Notes under the pieces: generated by a model
The model's database searches: none
Told to the model about the DNA's origin: nothing
What the model saw: the letters and a program-made list of their open reading frames with translations, nothing else
Source of the DNA: a virus
Reading direction: 5' to 3' (one strand)
Length of the DNA: 60,036 nt
Virus record (IMG/VR): IMGVR_UViG_3300017605_000626
Span: 64,001 to 124,036 of that record
Part shown: one piece after another, positions 2,224-57,440 of the stretch
Numbering within the stretch: position 1 is the stretch's first letter
Layout: each line of letters starts with the position of its first letter
Translations under genes and position numbers: made by a program

Positions 2224-3827
2224 TGTCACCTTATATCTCAGCAGAAGAAGTTAAGAGGCAAGAAACAGAAGAGAAATTAAAACTTCTTAGGTCCACACAT
2301 GAATTTTATGATGTGTATTATCATGATTGGAAGTTTTATCTTAATTCTTATGAAGGTGGAAATTGTGTATTAACACAAGATAACCTTTTTAAACACGCTA
2401 GGGAAAATGACGAAGACTATTTAGATAGAGTTAAAAGAGCACATTTCTTAAACTATACAAATGTAGTTGTAGATTTTTATACTAATTTTATTTTCTCTGA
2501 TGTGATAGAAAGAGATGGTCGTGATAATGACGTTTTCTATCAACAATTTATTAAAGATGTAAATAGAAAGGGAGAAAATATAGATAATTTCATGTCACAG
2601 ATTTGTACAGATTTGCAAATTTTTGGTATGGTATATGTCTTAGTAGATTCTCCTAGTATTGATGAAATTAGTGGGGCTGATGATGGAGCTATAATTACTC
2701 AGCAGTTCCAAGAAAAAAATGGTATTAGACCATATTGGATTTTGATTCAGCCCGATGAAATTTTAGATTGGGATACTGATGATTTTGGAAATTATCTTTA
2801 TGTAAAACGTAGACAATACGATGTAAAGATGTTGGCAGGATCAAAAAGAAAGTATGAAAAATTTACTGAATGGTATCCCGATAGAATTGAAACTTCATTA
2901 GTAGATTTAACCAATCCAGAAAATCCCGAATTATTGGAGTTTAGAACAGCACAAGGAAATAATGTAGGAGAAGTTCCTTTCATATCTGTGATTTATAAGA
3001 AAAGTAAAAAGTATAAAGATATGGGAGTAAGTTTTATTTGTGACATAGCTGGCAATAACAGAGAAATTCTAAATATAACTAGTCTTATTGATGAATTTTT
3101 ATATCGCCAATGTTTTAATATGTTGGCAAGAGAAAGAGACTCTTTGTTACCATTTACTTCTGCTGATGATTCAAAATTTGGTACTTCCAATGTTATAGAA
3201 TATTCAAGAGGCGGAGATCCCCCACAATATATCACACCACCAGCACAACCTGCTGAATTTTTACAAACGGAAAGAGAAAAAATAATTGGTGAGATATATA
3301 GACAAGCAATTCAAGATTTAAGATCTGACTTAGCTAATGGGGAGAAATCTTCTGGATTTAGTCAAGCTCAGTCTTTTTCACGTACTGTTCCTTTTATAGC
3401 TGCTAGAGCGGAGACTTTAGAAAGGGCAGAAAATAAATTAATGTCCTTAACGATGAAGTATTACAACGATAGGGAATGGAAAGGTAAAGTAAAATATAAG
3501 GATGACTATTCTGTAACTAATGTATCTGATGCTACATCTCATTTGCTGAAGTTATTTAAAGAACTGGCTCTTCCTTCTAAAACATTTGCTGTATTAGAAT
3601 TAAAAAGACTTGTTCAAACTCTTGATGGAAAAATAGCTACTGAGGATTTGAGTAAAGTGTTTTCTGAAATTGATAGTTTGGATTTTAATGATTGGCAGGA
3701 TAAGGTTATTGGTCAAAATAAAACTGTAGTTCCTCCTGCTGATCCAAATAAATTGCCAACCGGAAGCAATGAAAAAAAACCAGCTACTATTTCTGAAGTT
3801 TCTAAAGAAGCAAAGATTAAAAAATAA
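2223..3827 (+). CDS. Portal protein
   Basis: The size (534 residues), position before scaffold and capsid, and sequence style identify the portal: an N-terminal region with repeated aromatic residues (YDVYYHDWKFYLNSY), the FLNYTNVVVDFYTNFIFSD stretch typical of phage portal N-terminal domains, a central RPYWILIQPDEILDWD segment as in SPP1 gp6/HK97-type portals, and a C-terminal helical region ending in a Lys/Pro-rich tail. Twelve copies would form the DNA channel at one capsid vertex and bind terminase. The terminase genes are not in the window and should lie upstream. Confidence 0.85.
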   Translation: MSPYISAEEVKRQETEEKLKLLRSTHEFYDVYYHDWKFYLNSYEGGNCVLTQDNLFKHARENDEDYLDRVKRAHFLNYTNVVVDFYTNFIFSDVIERDGRDNDVFYQQFIKDVNRKGENIDNFMSQICTDLQIFGMVYVLVDSPSIDEISGADDGAIITQQFQEKNGIRPYWILIQPDEILDWDTDDFGNYLYVKRRQYDVKMLAGSKRKYEKFTEWYPDRIETSLVDLTNPENPELLEFRTAQGNNVGEVPFISVIYKKSKKYKDMGVSFICDIAGNNREILNITSLIDEFLYRQCFNMLARERDSLLPFTSADDSKFGTSNVIEYSRGGDPPQYITPPAQPAEFLQTEREKIIGEIYRQAIQDLRSDLANGEKSSGFSQAQSFSRTVPFIAARAETLERAENKLMSLTMKYYNDREWKGKVKYKDDYSVTNVSDATSHLLKLFKELALPSKTFAVLELKRLVQTLDGKIATEDLSKVFSEIDSLDFNDWQDKVIGQNKTVVPPADPNKLPTGSNEKKPATISEVSKEAKIKK

Positions 3828-5014: not shown

Positions 5015-5947
5015 ATGGCACCGACTTTAATTGCCAATATCATCGACCCTGAAGTTTTAGGAGACCAAATCTCTGCGAAATTTCCCGATCATTTGGTATT
5101 AGGTAACACGAATCTAGTTCAGGTTAATGGAGAGTTCCCATTGGGATCTCCGGGAACTAAATTCAAGATTCCGTTTTACAAGAGAATCGCTGCGTTCGGA
5201 GATTTGACAGAGAACGTTGCATTGACCACAAATAACGTTACCACTGGAACGGAAACTGCTACGGTAGTTCGTGGTGGTGGGGCGTATGAAGTACTCGATA
5301 CCGCAGAATTGGTATCTATCTCAGATCCTATGGCTGAAATTTCAGATCAGATTGCTCGAAGAGCCGCAGAGTATATCGACGCTAAATTGGTTTCTCAGTT
5401 GGATTTGACACCAAATAACTTTGATCAGAACGGAACAGAAGGTGTAACAGCTTCTCCAACCGGAACCCTGAATCAGAACGCTATTATTAAGGCTTATACC
5501 ACAAAGCTTGGAGATAACTATAGTTCTCTAATGAATGGTGGGTGGATTATCATGCACTCAAAGCAGTTTGCTGATTTATTGCAGACAGGCGCGGTGCAGA
5601 ATCAGTATCAGATTGGTCCTATGACAACTCAGGGTGTAATTACTCAGGGTCCGTCAGCACTTCCTATGATTGCTGGTCTTAGAATTCACGTATCAGATAG
5701 AGTTACTAGCAATACTATCTCTGCTGTACAACAGTACAAATGTTACCTTGTAGCTCCAGAATCTCTTGCTCTGTTTTACCAGAGACAGGTTATGGTAGAA
5801 TTCGACCGAGATGTTTTGAAGTTTAGTGACATTGTTTCAGCTAGTGTTCACTTCGCTCCCCATCTTTATGGGTACGATGATACTACTGCTTCAGTGGTTG
5901 CACAAGACAACAAATCTATTGCTGTGGTAAGAATTAATACCGTATAA
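5015..5947 (+). CDS. Major capsid protein (HK97 fold)
   Basis: A 310-residue protein follows the scaffold. Features typical of HK97-fold capsid proteins are the N-terminal arm (residues 1-50), an E-loop region around GTKFKIPFYKRIAAFGDLTE, and a spine helix containing DPMAEISDQIARRAAEYID. Codon use is visibly more GC-rich at third positions than in neighbouring genes, as often seen for the most abundant virion protein. An AGGAG site lies upstream of the ATG. Confidence 0.9.
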   Translation: MAPTLIANIIDPEVLGDQISAKFPDHLVLGNTNLVQVNGEFPLGSPGTKFKIPFYKRIAAFGDLTENVALTTNNVTTGTETATVVRGGGAYEVLDTAELVSISDPMAEISDQIARRAAEYIDAKLVSQLDLTPNNFDQNGTEGVTASPTGTLNQNAIIKAYTTKLGDNYSSLMNGGWIIMHSKQFADLLQTGAVQNQYQIGPMTTQGVITQGPSALPMIAGLRIHVSDRVTSNTISAVQQYKCYLVAPESLALFYQRQVMVEFDRDVLKFSDIVSASVHFAPHLYGYDDTTASVVAQDNKSIAVVRINTV

Positions 5948-18456: not shown

Positions 18457-21400
18457 ATGGCACTTAGTTTTACCAGTGATGACCCTACATTAGCAGGCAT
18501 AGATTTCATAAAGTATCTTACGGATAAGCCTGTTATATCTAGAGGTATAAACCAACCATCTACTTGTGATATGACTTTTGCTAAGTGGGGAAGTGGATTT
18601 GTGCTTCCGAGAAGAGGGTCTTATTTTACTTTTGGAACTACTGCAAATGCAAAGTTTTGGACAGGATTTTTAATTGAAGACCCAGATTTAGAGTATCTAG
18701 GTAAAAAATCTGATGATGATCAACCACAATGGCAGTGGAAATTTAAAGGCACCTCTGATGAATATATATTGAACCTTGCTCCAGTTGGAATTCTTCCTGT
18801 TTATATTAACCAAACACAAGGAAATATTATAAAAGATTTAGCAAGCCGTATTGCTCCATCTAAATTTGATGTAACTAATGTGGATGATGGGCAATTAGTA
18901 CCATACTTTTTTTGTGACCCAACTAAAACTTTTAGTGAAATTGTTAGAGATTTTGCTGAAGCAGCTTACTTTGCTTTTTGGGCCACCGATTTTAAATTAT
19001 ATTATAAACGTCAAGACACTATTACTTCACCAATAATTATTAATGGTAAGACGGATTATTCTAGTAGGGTAAGAATCTCTTCTTCTACCAATGCTTCACC
19101 AATTGTTATTACTACATCTTCTGCACACGGAAGAAGTAATGGAGATTGTGTTTCTATTACTAACCATTTAATTAATACGGCAGCCAATGGTAATTGGATT
19201 ATCCAGAATGTAGCCCCAACAACTATGGAGTTGGTTGGTTCAACTGGTAATGGTGTAGGCGGAGCAACTGGATGGGCTGGACTACATAACCCACATTTTA
19301 CACCAGCTCGATTACAAATTGGCCCAGTAAATGACCCAGTAATTAATGACTGTATTGTAATTGGAGACATAGAGCCACAAGGATTAATAAATGAGTTCTT
19401 TGTTGGCGATGGCCTTACTAATAATTTTCCTTTGTTATCTTCTATATTTGGCACAGATAGTGCTTTATTATTAGATGAAGTTTTTTCTGGTAATACTATT
19501 GATTCTAATAAATGGTTAGAAGTAGACTCTGTTAATGATGTATTAACTGCTGATAATGGTTATCTACAGGTTATTGGAAATGCTCTTGATAATTATGAAG
19601 TATATTTACAGTCAACTGCATTAATACCATTACAAGGAAATTTACGACTAACGCATGGAGAATATGATTTTGTAACTACAACAAATGATGGCGTGGTAGC
19701 ATCTTTGTGGACATCAACCCCTTCGTTTAGTTCAACTGGACCTGTTGAATTTCCTGGGTGTATTTATGGTATTAGAGTTACTTCTAATGGAACAGAAATT
19801 ACTTTAAATCCCATCCTTAATGGAGTGGTACAAGAAGCGGCTGGAGATTCTTATACCGCTTTAACATTATCTGACAATAAAAGATATATTATCAGAACTT
19901 TAGTTAATTTTGAGAATGTTTATAGAAGAGATAGAGAGTCTCTATTTAGATTAATTAATGGAACTTTAGGAAGTTATGGTGGAAACTCTATCCCAGATCA
20001 TCCAGTTTATCGTACTATCATTACAGAGATTGATGCTTTAACTGGTAAGTCAACTACTAATCAAGTGCTTTGGACACATTCAGGAGCAAGCACTGGTGTG
20101 GGTGACACACAATTTTACGCCGCGTATGTTCCAGTGCTTTCTAATGACCTACACCTAACTCTTTCTAATATTACAATTAGTGTTCCAATGCAGGCGTCTT
20201 TGGAAACGCTAGATAAAAATATCTGGTATCCAGAAAGAATGAAGTATGATATTAATACTGGCGAGCCAGTGCCATTTGATACCACTATATTACCTTGGCA
20301 ACCTAAAATAATTGGGCCAAACGAAATAGAATCTTATGACAATATGAATCCTGTGGCTACTATTTTAACTAGTAGACAAGGTAGAATTGATCAAGGAAAT
20401 ATTCTTGGTTCTACTCTTTATAATTCTGGAGATGCATCATTAGCTTTTTTTAAAGACAGTGTTAAGCAGACAGCTAATACACCACCGCCAGGCCAGTTGT
20501 TACATTTAAAATATAGAAGAGCTGGTGTAGCTATTGGTAGAGCACAAAGCACTGATCCAGCCGTCCCTAATAGCATTCCTAATGAAGCTACTCTTTGGGG
20601 AGATAATGGATATCGTACTATAACTAGAAAAGATATTAGTCCATTGCCAAGAACTTCTTTAGAGTGTGAGCAGGTCGCCGCAGCTATTGTGGAGGAGAAT
20701 ATTTATCAACATTATGCTGGCACCTATAATCAATTTAGTAATTATGAGTTTACTCAGAACACTCCAATTCCGGGTGGAATATTATTATTTAAGAACTTAC
20801 CTACAACTTTACCTGATATTCAAGCGGAACAAATTACTAAGGTTGTTTCAACTATTGAGAGTAAATCTCAAGAAATTTTTACGCATGAAATTACTTTTGG
20901 AAAAATAGATAAAGTTAAGAAGTTTTTATCTGGACTAAAAGAAACTAGAAATCCATTTGCACCAACAGATACTGCTGAAGTTCCAACTGCTCAAGATTTA
21001 GAAGATGCTGTTGATTCTACTAATGTTTTATCTTTGATTTATAATTCTATTACTTTGACTTTGACTTATGGAGGCACTTCTAGTGTTTTACCAAATACAG
21101 CTTTAAATGTTGATTTACATCTTAAATTGAAATCTTGGACCAGTGTTCCATCTGATACTATAGTTTCAGGTCTAACAATAGATCAAGAAGATAATAATTA
21201 TCTTGTTATTGATATTGGACAAGCTCCACCAGAAGGCGGTGGTTTTGAAATTAGGTATAGTGATCAAGGATGGGGAGATAGTAATAACAAAAACTTTTTG
21301 GTTTATGACATTATTACGGATGGTAAAACAACAGCACAAGAATTTAAAATCGCTAGAAAAATTAGTAATGTAGTGTTTGTTAAAGCTTATGATTCTAGTG

Positions 21401-56307: not shown

Positions 56308-56386
56308 TGGAGGGAAGGGCGTGGATTCGAACCCGCGTTTTATAGGTTTTGCAGACCTATGCCTTTGGCCTCTTGGCTACCTCCCC
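56308..56386 (-). tRNA. tRNA-Cys (GCA)
   Basis: Acceptor GGGGAGG/CCTTCCC has one G-U; T73 and CCA are encoded. D-arm GCC/GGC; anticodon arm TAGGT-CTGCAAA-ACCTA. The T-arm (GCGGG/CACGC) has one mismatch and an eight-base loop, slightly irregular. Its 5' end overlaps the stop of the upstream small gene by ten bases. Confidence 0.83.
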
Positions 56387-56571
56387 ATTACTCTATACTT
56401 TGTTTTTCTAGATTGTTTCCAATTTTTTAGTGGCCGTTTATTAGCATTTTCACCACGATTGTAAGGACATAAACCGCACTTAATTTTTCCTTTTTGTTCT
56501 AGTTCATGTTTCCTTACTTTATTAGCGACTGATCTATTAGTTTCTATTTTACTTAGTCTCTTTAGTTTCAT
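56377..56571 (-). CDS. Small basic CxxC protein
   Basis: The 64 residues contain KCGLCPYNRGENANKRPLKN and SRKTKYR, a conserved small phage protein type with two cysteines and many basic residues, likely nucleic-acid binding. Its last three codons and stop lie in the tRNA-Cys gene, so one transcript cannot easily serve both at once. Confidence 0.6.
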   Translation of the reverse strand: MKLKRLSKIETNRSVANKVRKHELEQKGKIKCGLCPYNRGENANKRPLKNWKQSRKTKYRVMGR

Positions 56572-56578
56572 AAAGAAA

Positions 56579-56652
56579 TGGGGTGTACGGAGCGAATCGA
56601 ACGCTCGTATTGTGGGTCACAGCCACTTGTCTTACCATTAGACTACGTACAC
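56579..56652 (-). tRNA. tRNA-His (GTG)
   Basis: Acceptor GTGTACG/CGTACAC is perfect; C73 and CCA are encoded. Anticodon arm AGTGG-CTGTGAC-CCACA; T-arm GAGCG-TTCGATT-CGCTC. The base before position 1 is T, so the usual genome-encoded G-1 of bacterial tRNA-His is absent. Confidence 0.92.
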
Positions 56653-56655
56653 AGT

Positions 56656-56727
56656 TGGTGGAGGTAGGGGAGTTGAACCCCACTTATTGAATGCAAATCA
56701 ATCGTGCTCCCATTACACTATACGCCC
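56656..56727 (-). tRNA. tRNA-Ala (TGC)
   Basis: Acceptor GGGCGTA/TACCTCC has one mismatch and one G-U; A73 and CCA are encoded. D-arm GTG/CAC; anticodon arm ATTGA-TTTGCAT-TCAAT. The T-stem is only four pairs (GGGG/CCCC). The G3-U70 pair, the alanine identity element, is present. Confidence 0.8.
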
Positions 56728-56733
56728 CGAAAT

Positions 56734-56810
56734 TGGTCAGGATGGATGGATTCGAACCACCGGCCCCTCGGTTCCAGGCCGAGAACTCTACCAGACTGAG
56801 CTACATCCTG
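56734..56810 (-). tRNA. tRNA-Pro (TGG)
   Basis: Acceptor CAGGATG/CATCCTG is perfect; A73 and CCA are encoded. D-arm GCTC/GAGT; anticodon arm CTCGG-CCTGGAA-CCGAG, so position 33 is C; T-arm GGTGG-TTCGAAT-CCATC with one G-U. Confidence 0.88.
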
Positions 56811-56815
56811 AAGCT

Positions 56816-56905
56816 TTAAACTTGTGATTTAAGTACATAATATAGCAGTACTATAAGAAGTGCTGCTACTATTAAATCTGTTAAATGTGTAAACATAAAG
56901 TTCAT
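56816..56905 (-). CDS. 29-residue single-helix membrane protein
   Basis: From the ATG 56905 the peptide is MNFMFTHLTDLIVAALLIVL and onward, one membrane helix. An earlier ATG at 56953 is possible; longer versions would enter the tRNA-Tyr gene. Function unknown. Confidence 0.4.
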   Translation of the reverse strand: MNFMFTHLTDLIVAALLIVLLYYVLKSQV

Positions 56906-56957
56906 AATTTTAATCTCTGAATAAGATGGTATTGGTCTAATAAATTTATACATAATT

Positions 56958-57049
56958 TGGTGTAGACTGGTTGAATTGAACAACTCGCTCGACACTCCAC
57001 AATGTTTAATGAGCATCCGGGTTACAGCCGGACATGGAGAACAGCCTAC
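56958..57049 (-). tRNA. Atypical tRNA-Tyr (GTA), D-arm apparently missing
   Basis: Acceptor GTAGGCT/AGTCTAC (one G-U), A73 and CCA are good, as is the anticodon arm TCCGG-CTGTAAC-CCGGA with anticodon GTA. The T-arm AGTTG-TTCAATT-CAACC has one mismatch. Only ten bases join acceptor and anticodon stems, too few for a D-arm, and the variable region is about 30 bases. CTCCA in the short linker can pair with TGGAG in the variable region. Confidence 0.6.
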
Positions 57050-57057
57050 TTATATTT

Positions 57058-57131
57058 TGGTAGCGGGACTAGGAATCAAACCTAAATTTTTCGCTCATCA
57101 GGCGAACTTTCTATCATTGAAATATCCCGCT
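57058..57131 (-). tRNA. tRNA-Ile (GAT)
   Basis: Acceptor AGCGGGA/TCCCGCT is perfect; A73 and CCA are encoded. D-arm TTC/GAA; anticodon arm TTCGC-CTGATGA-GCGAA; T-arm TTAGG-TTTGATT-CCTAG with one weak pair. Confidence 0.93.
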
Positions 57132-57132
57132 A

Positions 57133-57216
57133 TGGTAGCCGAAGAAGGAGTCGAACCTTCAAAGATTTCTCCGGTTGGGTTTGAGCCAACTGCGTTTACC
57201 GTTTCACCATTCGGCT
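57133..57216 (-). tRNA. tRNA-Leu (CAA)
   Basis: Acceptor AGCCGAA/TTCGGCT is perfect; A73 and CCA are encoded. Anticodon arm GTTGG-CTCAAAC-CCAAC; class II variable arm; T-arm GAAGG-TTCGACT-CCTTC. Only one base separates it from tRNA-Ile. Confidence 0.95.
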
Positions 57217-57351
57217 TTAAGTAGAACATTTATAATCTTTTATTACCTTTATCTCTTTGCAATCAGTACATTCATAAGTCATTTCCCACGTACTAACTGG
57301 TTCTTTTATTATCTTAGCTTTAATACATTGCCATGTGTGGTTGTGTTCCAT
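57217..57351 (-). CDS. 44-residue CxxC protein between two tRNA-Leu genes
   Basis: The frame from ATG 57351 encodes MEHNHTWQCIKAKIIKEPVS and later YECTDCKEIK, with three or four cysteines that could hold a zinc ion. It fills the space between tRNA-Leu(TAG) and tRNA-Leu(CAA) exactly, which supports it as a real gene. Confidence 0.5.
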   Translation of the reverse strand: MEHNHTWQCIKAKIIKEPVSTWEMTYECTDCKEIKVIKDYKCST

Positions 57352-57357
57352 AAGTTT

Positions 57358-57440
57358 TGGTCCCATCTAGAGGACTTGAACCTCTACGCCCGAAGGCACA
57401 CGCTTCTAAGGCGTGCGTGGCTGCATTACACCAAGATGGG
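57358..57440 (-). tRNA. tRNA-Leu (TAG)
   Basis: Acceptor CCCATCT/AGATGGG is perfect; A73 and CCA are encoded. D-arm GTG/CAC; anticodon arm CACGC-CTTAGAA-GCGTG; variable arm TGCC-TTCG-GGCG; T-arm AGAGG-TTCAAGT-CCTCT. The 5' end overlaps the stop region of the upstream gene by 15 bases. Confidence 0.97.

Follow-up and report, generated by a model that had tools for sequence, protein, structure and literature searches.

A tyrosine tRNA gene without a D-arm in phages and the pseudoknot predicted in its place

Known tRNAs with a reduced D-arm and the phage gene

To our knowledge, a D-arm-bearing cloverleaf is regarded as a universal feature of tRNAs outside organelles. Natural armless tRNAs are said to exist only in mitochondria in the available part of a 2024 paper on the engineering of a D-arm-less tRNA (PMC11551756), and a review in which the words phage and viral are absent treats D-arm-less tRNAs under mitochondria in its available part (PMC7609411). 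In the open-licence PMC full text, available in part, no account of phage or bacterial tRNAs without a D-arm was found; reports elsewhere are possible. Here, we describe a D-arm-less tRNA-Tyr(GTA) gene in a phage record of 124,036 bases (IMG/VR record IMGVR_UViG_3300017605_000626). The stretch analysed, referred to as the window, comprises 60,036 nucleotides (nt), bases 64001-124036 of the record. The gene lies on the minus strand at window positions 57049-56958, is 92 nt long and encodes CCA. Judged from its letters and those of its relatives, it is very probably a working tyrosine tRNA of a new fold, in which a pseudoknot replaces the D-arm.

Bacterial class II tRNA-Tyr (the E. coli type, present also in phage KPP10 at L183:1476-1563) shares with the phage family the GTA anticodon, A73, the G1-C72 pair, a long variable region, the T arm, and CCA. 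The phage family differs in that it has no D-arm and the loop of its variable arm pairs with the linker between the acceptor and anticodon stems. The variable-arm loop of E. coli tRNA-Tyr has about 3-4 nt, and by segment lengths that of the phage family has 18-24 nt in 21 of the 22 members and 19 nt in the arginine member. Mimicry of tRNA with pseudoknots and a reduced D region is known from the tRNA-like domain of transfer-messenger RNA (tmRNA) and from viral tRNA-like structures. In contrast to these, the phage family has a GTA anticodon arm of normal size, and its pseudoknot joins the linker to the variable arm.

Among mitochondrial tRNAs, mammalian tRNA-Ser AGY and Ascaris tRNA-Ser UCU likewise lack the D-arm and keep the T arm. 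Their connector is short, with 5 nt between the acceptor and anticodon arms in a human tRNA-Ser structure (PMC11551756, available part), whereas the phage linker has 10 nt, is paired in a pseudoknot, and belongs to a phage and bacterial cytosol setting. The combination of an unpaired short connector with an organellar genome is thus absent from the phage family, whose linker is paired and whose carriers are phage contigs and isolates. Outside organelles, an engineered D-arm-less tRNA-His (mini HisT) works with E. coli HisRS, EF-Tu, and ribosome. It is artificial, with bases 11-25 deleted, needs a pnp mutation in vivo, and has no replacement helix described in the available part of the source (PMC11551756); the phage tRNA is natural and knotted.

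Pairing and covariation in place of the D-arm

Read 5' to 3', the first half of the window gene is GTAGGCT GTTCTCCATG TCCGG CTGTAAC CCGGA TGCT CATTAAACATT, and the second half, which follows CATTAAACATT, is GTGGAG TGTCG AGCG AGTTG TTCAATT CAACC AGTCTAC A CCA. Its parts, in window coordinates, are as follows.

56958..57049, minus strand: whole D-arm-less tRNA-Tyr gene; family covariance model R2, 79.8 bits, E 1.5e-21, the gene itself being in the R2 training set
57043..57049, minus strand: acceptor stem, 5' strand GTAGGCT, partner AGTCTAC, 7/7 pairs
57033..57042, minus strand: linker GTTCTCCATG, 10 nt, at the place of the D-arm; read from the sequence
57034..57039, minus strand: predicted pseudoknot stem P, 5' strand CTCCAT; from pairing and covariation
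57016..57032, minus strand: anticodon arm TCCGG CTGTAAC CCGGA, stem 5/5, anticodon GTA at 57025-57023
57012..57015, minus strand: predicted variable-arm stem V, 5' strand TGCT; from pairing and covariation
57001..57011, minus strand: loop or small hairpin between V and P, CATTAAACATT; 6-11 nt across the family
56995..57000, minus strand: stem P, 3' strand GTGGAG, within the variable-arm loop; from pairing and covariation
56986..56989, minus strand: stem V, 3' strand AGCG; from pairing and covariation
56969..56985, minus strand: T arm AGTTG TTCAATT CAACC, 4/5 pairs
56958..56968, minus strand: acceptor 3' strand AGTCTAC, discriminator A73, and CCA; read from the sequence
56308..57440, minus strand: tRNA cluster Leu, Leu, Ile, [Tyr without D-arm], Pro, Ala, His, Cys (ARAGORN)

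An earlier note on the window had placed here, with no strand given, a tRNA-Tyr with acceptor, anticodon, and T arms and CCA, apparently without a D-arm, with a ten-base linker, a variable region of about thirty bases, and a possible CTCCA/TGGAG helix between the two. This description holds on the minus strand, where the linker has 10 nt and the variable region 30 nt. The linker is 10 nt long in all 22 distinct sequences of the family, none of which has room for a D-arm, and a 3-base-pair (bp) hairpin within the linker occurs in none of the 12 linkers tested. The helix proves to be real and to be kept by compensatory changes, with 6 bp instead of 5.

The helix, stem P, joins linker positions 11-16 to variable-region positions 50-55 (window RNA numbering). 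In the window gene it is CTCCAT/GTGGAG, the last pair being T.G. The clearest cases elsewhere are CCTCAC/GTGAGG in phage SCYZ1, CCTGTC/GACAGG in the Lyrsu phages, and CTTCAC/GTGAAG in L199. In the closest phage relative, G001, the stem is CCCCAC/GTGGGG, a compensatory change of T-A to C-G with respect to the window. Stem V pairs positions 35-38 with 61-64 over 4 bp. Among the 21 tyrosine members, 82 of its 84 cells are paired and three of its four pairs show double changes, and the acceptor stem is paired in 140 of 147 cells, with double changes at 7/7 pairs. As P and V cross, they would form an H-type pseudoknot with the anticodon arm in the first loop. Pairing and covariation together demonstrate that in the predicted structure the D-arm is gone and is replaced by a pseudoknot of the linker with the enlarged variable-arm loop. 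The crossing variable-arm stem, which makes the predicted fold a pseudoknot, and the spread of the design among phages go beyond the earlier note.

Several controls bear on this pairing. When the partner of stem P is slid by 1-4 positions, only 37-77 of 126 cells remain paired, and sliding destroys the pairing of both P and V. Five members (window, G001, SCYZ1, Rembedalsseter, and Lyrsu) came from searches that left P unconstrained; they have P paired in 30/30 cells, with double changes at 4/6 pairs, and V in 20/20. Over the first five members, 98.0% of cells are paired and both sides have changed in 16 of 30 pairs, where shuffling gives a mean of 5.8 (0/500). Where the loop between V and P has 11 nt, as in five members, a 3-bp hairpin covaries there; 93.3% of its cells are paired, and the window gene has a single mismatch in it. 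As a defining part of the family this hairpin is rejected: it is supported in the 11-nt-loop members only, and the others have 6-10 nt at this place.

Certain features of the data weigh against the predicted fold. Stem P is paired in 126 of 126 cells in the 21 tyrosine members, with double changes at four of its six pairs, a figure that is partly built in, because three pattern scans fixed some P bases on both strands (none fixed V or the acceptor stem). The P-unconstrained subset comprises only five members, and the placement of P and V in each alignment row was chosen for best pairing. Swapping strands among the 21 tyrosine members matches the observed pairing in 0 of 5000 trials for P and for V, and among the five P-unconstrained members in 86 and 68 of 5000, in controls that ignore the kinship of the members. 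Six members were folded by minimum free energy, in a way that cannot represent pseudoknots; P is drawn for two of them, G001 and Rembedalsseter, and the window gene is given a competing hairpin. The acceptor stem has two mismatches each in L189, L200, and L201 and one in L198.

A decayed tRNA pseudogene with a deleted D-arm would account for the failure of ARAGORN and Rfam to recognise the gene. Yet the 10-nt linker is shared by 22 distinct sequences, which show compensatory changes in the acceptor, P, anticodon, and V stems. Decay would not preserve such covariation, which refutes the pseudogene as a general account and makes it highly improbable overall. Relatives with a normal D-arm, in which a local deletion might be seen, were looked for as the earlier note had proposed. 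The closest relative, G001, has the D-arm-less design too. A more distant one, G007, does carry an ordinary D-armed tRNA-Tyr, but a plain deletion would not yield a co-varying helix. A normal tRNA with its D-arm restored by trans-splicing or from distant sequence is less probable still and can practically be set aside: both halves lie on one stretch of 88-94 nt, the constant 10-nt linker leaves no room for a hairpin, and no evidence in support of it was found.

In E. coli tRNA-Tyr, the bases that follow position 7 and open the D-stem are UUCCC. The family linker, (T/G)TTCCCCAC, resembles a 5' strand of this kind that was retained, the partner of which would have moved to the variable loop.

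Occurrence in phages, detection, and tyrosine identity

The family comprises 22 distinct D-arm-less sequences (21 Tyr and one Arg-UCU) in 25 phage records, of which 20 are IMG/VR contigs and five are GenBank isolates, all of them Pseudomonas phages. The member contigs range from 7,911 to 343,421 bases, and the genes span 88-94 nt in one stretch. The isolates are as follows.

SCYZ1: isolate, Pseudomonas fluorescens; D-arm-less tRNA-Tyr
Rembedalsseter: isolate, P. trivialis; D-arm-less tRNA-Tyr
Lyrsu01, Lyrsu02, and Lyrsu03: isolates, P. syringae; identical D-arm-less tRNA-Tyr gene

In all five isolates the gene is unannotated as a tRNA; the records of Lyrsu02 and Lyrsu03 do annotate the tRNA-Pro next to it. 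Members were gathered by pattern scans of IMG/VR, by BLAST against isolated phages, and with model R2. All IMG/VR pattern scans required a tyrosine anticodon loop (CTGTAA or YTGTAA), and hence other amino acids are under-sampled. The three scans that fixed P bases gave members in 4/63, 7/21, and 12/18 stretches, and two other IMG/VR scans in 1/3 and 4/11; in the 63-stretch scan, the 60 non-member loci were judged by the anticodon stem and only in part by R2. Members score at least 43.6 bits with R2, and other matches in member records at most 31.4 bits.

The gene of G001 was found with a descriptor limited to the acceptor, anticodon, and T arms and a linker of 5-15 nt. The record of this phage has 160,874 bases, its capsid protein is 72% identical, and 70 open reading frames of the window's record are matched in it. 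Its linker is GTTCCCCACG, and its variable region contains GTGGGG. Other carriers are far more distant: the stretches compared from G013, G014, and G015 have 1, 0, and 0 protein matches to the window's phage, respectively. As the design occurs in phages with almost no shared proteins, it crosses phage lineages. The comparison demonstrates that the same predicted D-arm-less design recurs in phage lineages sharing almost no proteins.

An exact or near-exact DNA search with the window gene gave no match in viral_contigs, and BLAST against phages gave only chance-level matches. Four pattern matches to the window gene were rejected as chance, all being without an anticodon stem. Chromosomal copies were sought with a pattern describing the 11-nt-loop class, which gave 11 stretches in genome_contigs, none with an anticodon stem. 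Scored with R2 (150 candidates per genome), 10 of the 11 genomes behind these loci reach 33.3 bits at best. In 390 genomes from the order to which G019 belongs (Porticoccus, the source of L144), a broader pattern gave none. As the patterns reach only some of the family, copies in chromosomes may exist.

Standard tools overlook the gene. In the window, ARAGORN reports 14 other tRNAs, and RF00005 of Rfam at its gathering threshold matches 11 others; neither reports the D-arm-less tyrosine gene. A permissive Rfam search of 56900-57060 gave no RF00005 match and only two chance-level matches to other families. ARAGORN lists no family member in any locus on which it was run, and RF00005 has no match at the place of the gene in nine other member loci. 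Of the covariance-model scoring suggested in the earlier note, the standard tRNA model thus gives nothing, and the family model gives the high score listed above for a gene on which it was trained. In a descriptor scan of 1.5 Mb of shuffled sequence, four matches arose, each with three mismatches, and the window gene has one. In 1.82 Mb of real loci, one non-member (L071, without CCA) also has only one mismatch.

Apart from the D-arm, the features of a tRNA are kept. Across the family the anticodon stem is paired in 102 of 105 cells and consists of 5 bp around a 7-nt loop with U33. The loop is CTGTAAA or CTGTAAC in 21/21 tyrosine members, the scans having demanded CTGTAA or YTGTAA. The T arm is paired in 92/105 cells, and T54-56 is TTC in 17 of the 22 members. 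The variable region of the tyrosine members is 26-32 nt long. All 21 of them have the anticodon GTA and A73, and 20/21 have G1-C72, L200 having C1-G72. Bacterial tyrosine identity elements include A73, G1-C72, the anticodon bases G34 and U35, and a long variable region (PMC9976931, available part), and the alignment demonstrates that, as far as can be read from the genes, the elements are kept across the tyrosine members.

The surroundings of the genes agree with such an identity. In the window, the D-arm-less gene comes after tRNA-Ile on the same strand, 8 nt apart (ARAGORN). In 27 loci of member records, most of them partial, the ARAGORN count is 180 tRNAs, of which just one, in L195, is a tRNA-Tyr. 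The near absence of another tRNA-Tyr from these records suggests that the D-arm-less gene fills the tyrosine slot. The contig of L195 holds both a D-arm-less tRNA-Tyr and the ARAGORN-detected tRNA-Tyr, which has an odd D region (L195:2272-2361 and 5302-5385, minus strand).

One phage carries a second D-arm-less gene beside its tyrosine gene (L192:7007-7095, minus strand), with anticodon TCT (Arg-UCU). It has stem P as CCTGGT/ACTGGG, acceptor pairing of 7/7, G73, and CCA, and it is missed by ARAGORN. The usual D-loop determinant of ArgRS is A20. As A20 is usually needed by ArgRS and the D-loop is absent, charging of this gene is in question.

Other unusual tRNAs occur in the loci. L189 and L192 have T-loops such as ATCGTTA in several otherwise ordinary phage tRNAs. 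Short tRNAs with leucine anticodons (UAG, UAA, CAA) lie at L098:696-772 and 778-854, L106:3493-3569 and 3575-3652, and L153:14208-14286, 18816-18893, and 19249-19326. They have 77-79 nt and lack the long variable arm that bacterial tRNA-Leu usually has; they may be charged with another amino acid or represent another unusual design. In phage G001, a tRNA-Ala-like gene (TGC) with a poor D-arm at L058:16252-16321 (plus strand) is missed by ARAGORN and scores 23.8 bits with RF00005. The ARAGORN list also omits a tRNA-like element at L098:587-665 (plus strand), which has acceptor, D, and T arms and an anticodon arm that apparently reads AAC.

Function, escape from defence, and significance

The members are most likely working tRNAs. 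In the proposed mechanism, the helix between linker and variable region would stack on the anticodon stem at the usual place of the D-stem, and the tRNA shape would stay usable without contacts between D-loop and T-loop. Host TyrRS would charge the D-arm-less tRNA, and host EF-Tu and ribosome would use it. That the engineered D-arm-less tRNA-His works in E. coli indicates that the translation machinery can accept such a fold. Relaxation of the T-loop was considered as a sign of lost D-loop contact and rejected: 5/22 members and 17/124 other tRNAs deviate (p = 0.33), the latter being distinct CCA-bearing tRNAs in member loci that are not TTC at the positions taken as T54-56.

It is conceivable, though unlikely, that the RNA has no role in translation and instead acts as a tRNA-like decoy or regulator, with TyrRS, a nuclease, or some other protein that binds tRNA as its target. 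Plant-virus tRNA-like structures with tyrosine identity are charged and yet have no part in protein synthesis (PMC9976931, available part), and the phage RNA lacks the D-loop on which the L-shape normally depends. However, the anticodon loop, the identity elements, and mostly CCA are conserved, and the genes lie mostly in tRNA clusters. An Arg(UCU) member exists, and tRNA-rich phages are found without another tRNA-Tyr.

If the members are working tRNAs, the fold may have been selected for escape from defences that cut tRNA-Tyr, such as Septu and retron-Eco7, a proposal by analogy to which we give a little less than even weight. Retron-Eco7 depletes tRNA-Tyr (PMC11555353, available part), Septu cuts it in the variable loop, and the tRNA-Tyr of T5 is described as resisting retron-Eco7 cutting because of a distinctive variable loop (both PMC13096335, available part). 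The D-arm-less fold would restructure the variable arm, the place where these systems cut, and the phage would keep a cut-resistant tRNA-Tyr while that of the host is destroyed. The variable-arm loop of the family is enlarged as a whole and engaged in stem P. The tRNA-Tyr genes of T5, SP15, and T6 that counter retron-Eco7 or Septu are also phage-encoded, and in T5 the variable loop differs; neither paper contains the words D-arm or D-loop, and no D-arm-less form is mentioned in their available parts (PMC11555353, PMC13096335).

LUZ24-like phages bear on the question of cargo. The tRNA cassette at the same place, upstream of tRNA-Pro and terminase, varies among them: SCYZ1, Rembedalsseter, and Lyrsu have the D-arm-less tyrosine gene, PaP3 and LUZ24 a D-armed one, and Delta and MR299-2 other tRNAs and no Tyr. 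No tRNA was found in the stretch read at this site in tf, NV1, UFV-P2, and Bjorn. Turnover of this sort is in keeping with accessory cargo directed against defences. In Rembedalsseter, ARAGORN finds no tRNA in 45,228 bases, which leaves the D-arm-less tyrosine gene as the only tRNA found, and a promoter-like site (11/12 positions) ends about 22 nt upstream of it. The tRNA-Tyr genes of PaP3 and LUZ24 are rejected as members, having an ARAGORN cloverleaf and R2 scores of only 20.5 and 23.6 bits, respectively. Both are irregular, with a 23-nt D region and mismatched last acceptor pairs (LUZ24 L184:44684-44770, minus strand; PaP3 L185:1789-1875, plus strand). The RefSeq record of LUZ24 lists no tRNAs, and ARAGORN finds three.

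The same variation of the tRNA set at the cassette site can be read as drift. A functional tRNA-Tyr might merely supplement the host for phage codon use, its odd fold arising by neutral drift and being compensated by the pseudoknot; we regard this as a credible account, with about a third of the weight. Most records have many ordinary tRNAs alongside (the 14 of the window; 31 RF00005 matches in G013). In Rembedalsseter, however, the D-arm-less gene is the only detectable tRNA, and the invariant linker length and the recurrence in unrelated phages suggest more than drift. Drift also leaves the predominance of tyrosine (21/22) unexplained, although most scans asked for a tyrosine anticodon.

Other points tell against a working, defence-resistant tRNA. 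CCA is encoded in 16 of the 21 tyrosine members and in the arginine member and is uncoded in five of the 21, and the T-loops are no more relaxed than in the other tRNAs of the same phages. The tRNA-Tyr of phage T6 is also cut by Septu (PMC13096335, available part), so phage origin alone confers no resistance. In tf, a promoter similar to that in Rembedalsseter is found upstream of the terminase gene although no tRNA is present at that place, and this weakens the reading as defence cargo. The arginine member does not fit a defence story confined to tyrosine. A wider proposal by analogy, held only tentatively, is that pseudoknot-locked natural phage tRNAs for two or more amino acids (tyrosine, with arginine in one phage) might be selected as unrecognisable to tRNA-cutting defence nucleases, with host synthetase, EF-Tu, and ribosome still accepting them.

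In all, natural D-arm-less tRNAs appear to recur across unrelated phages, with a replacement of the D-arm that is backed by covariation. Surveys of phage tRNAs undercount, as both standard tools used (ARAGORN and Rfam) overlook D-arm-less genes, and phages seemingly without tRNA-Tyr may carry one of this type. Five carriers are isolated Pseudomonas phages, and charging, decoding, and defence resistance are therefore directly testable. The fold could also serve as a scaffold for tRNA engineering.
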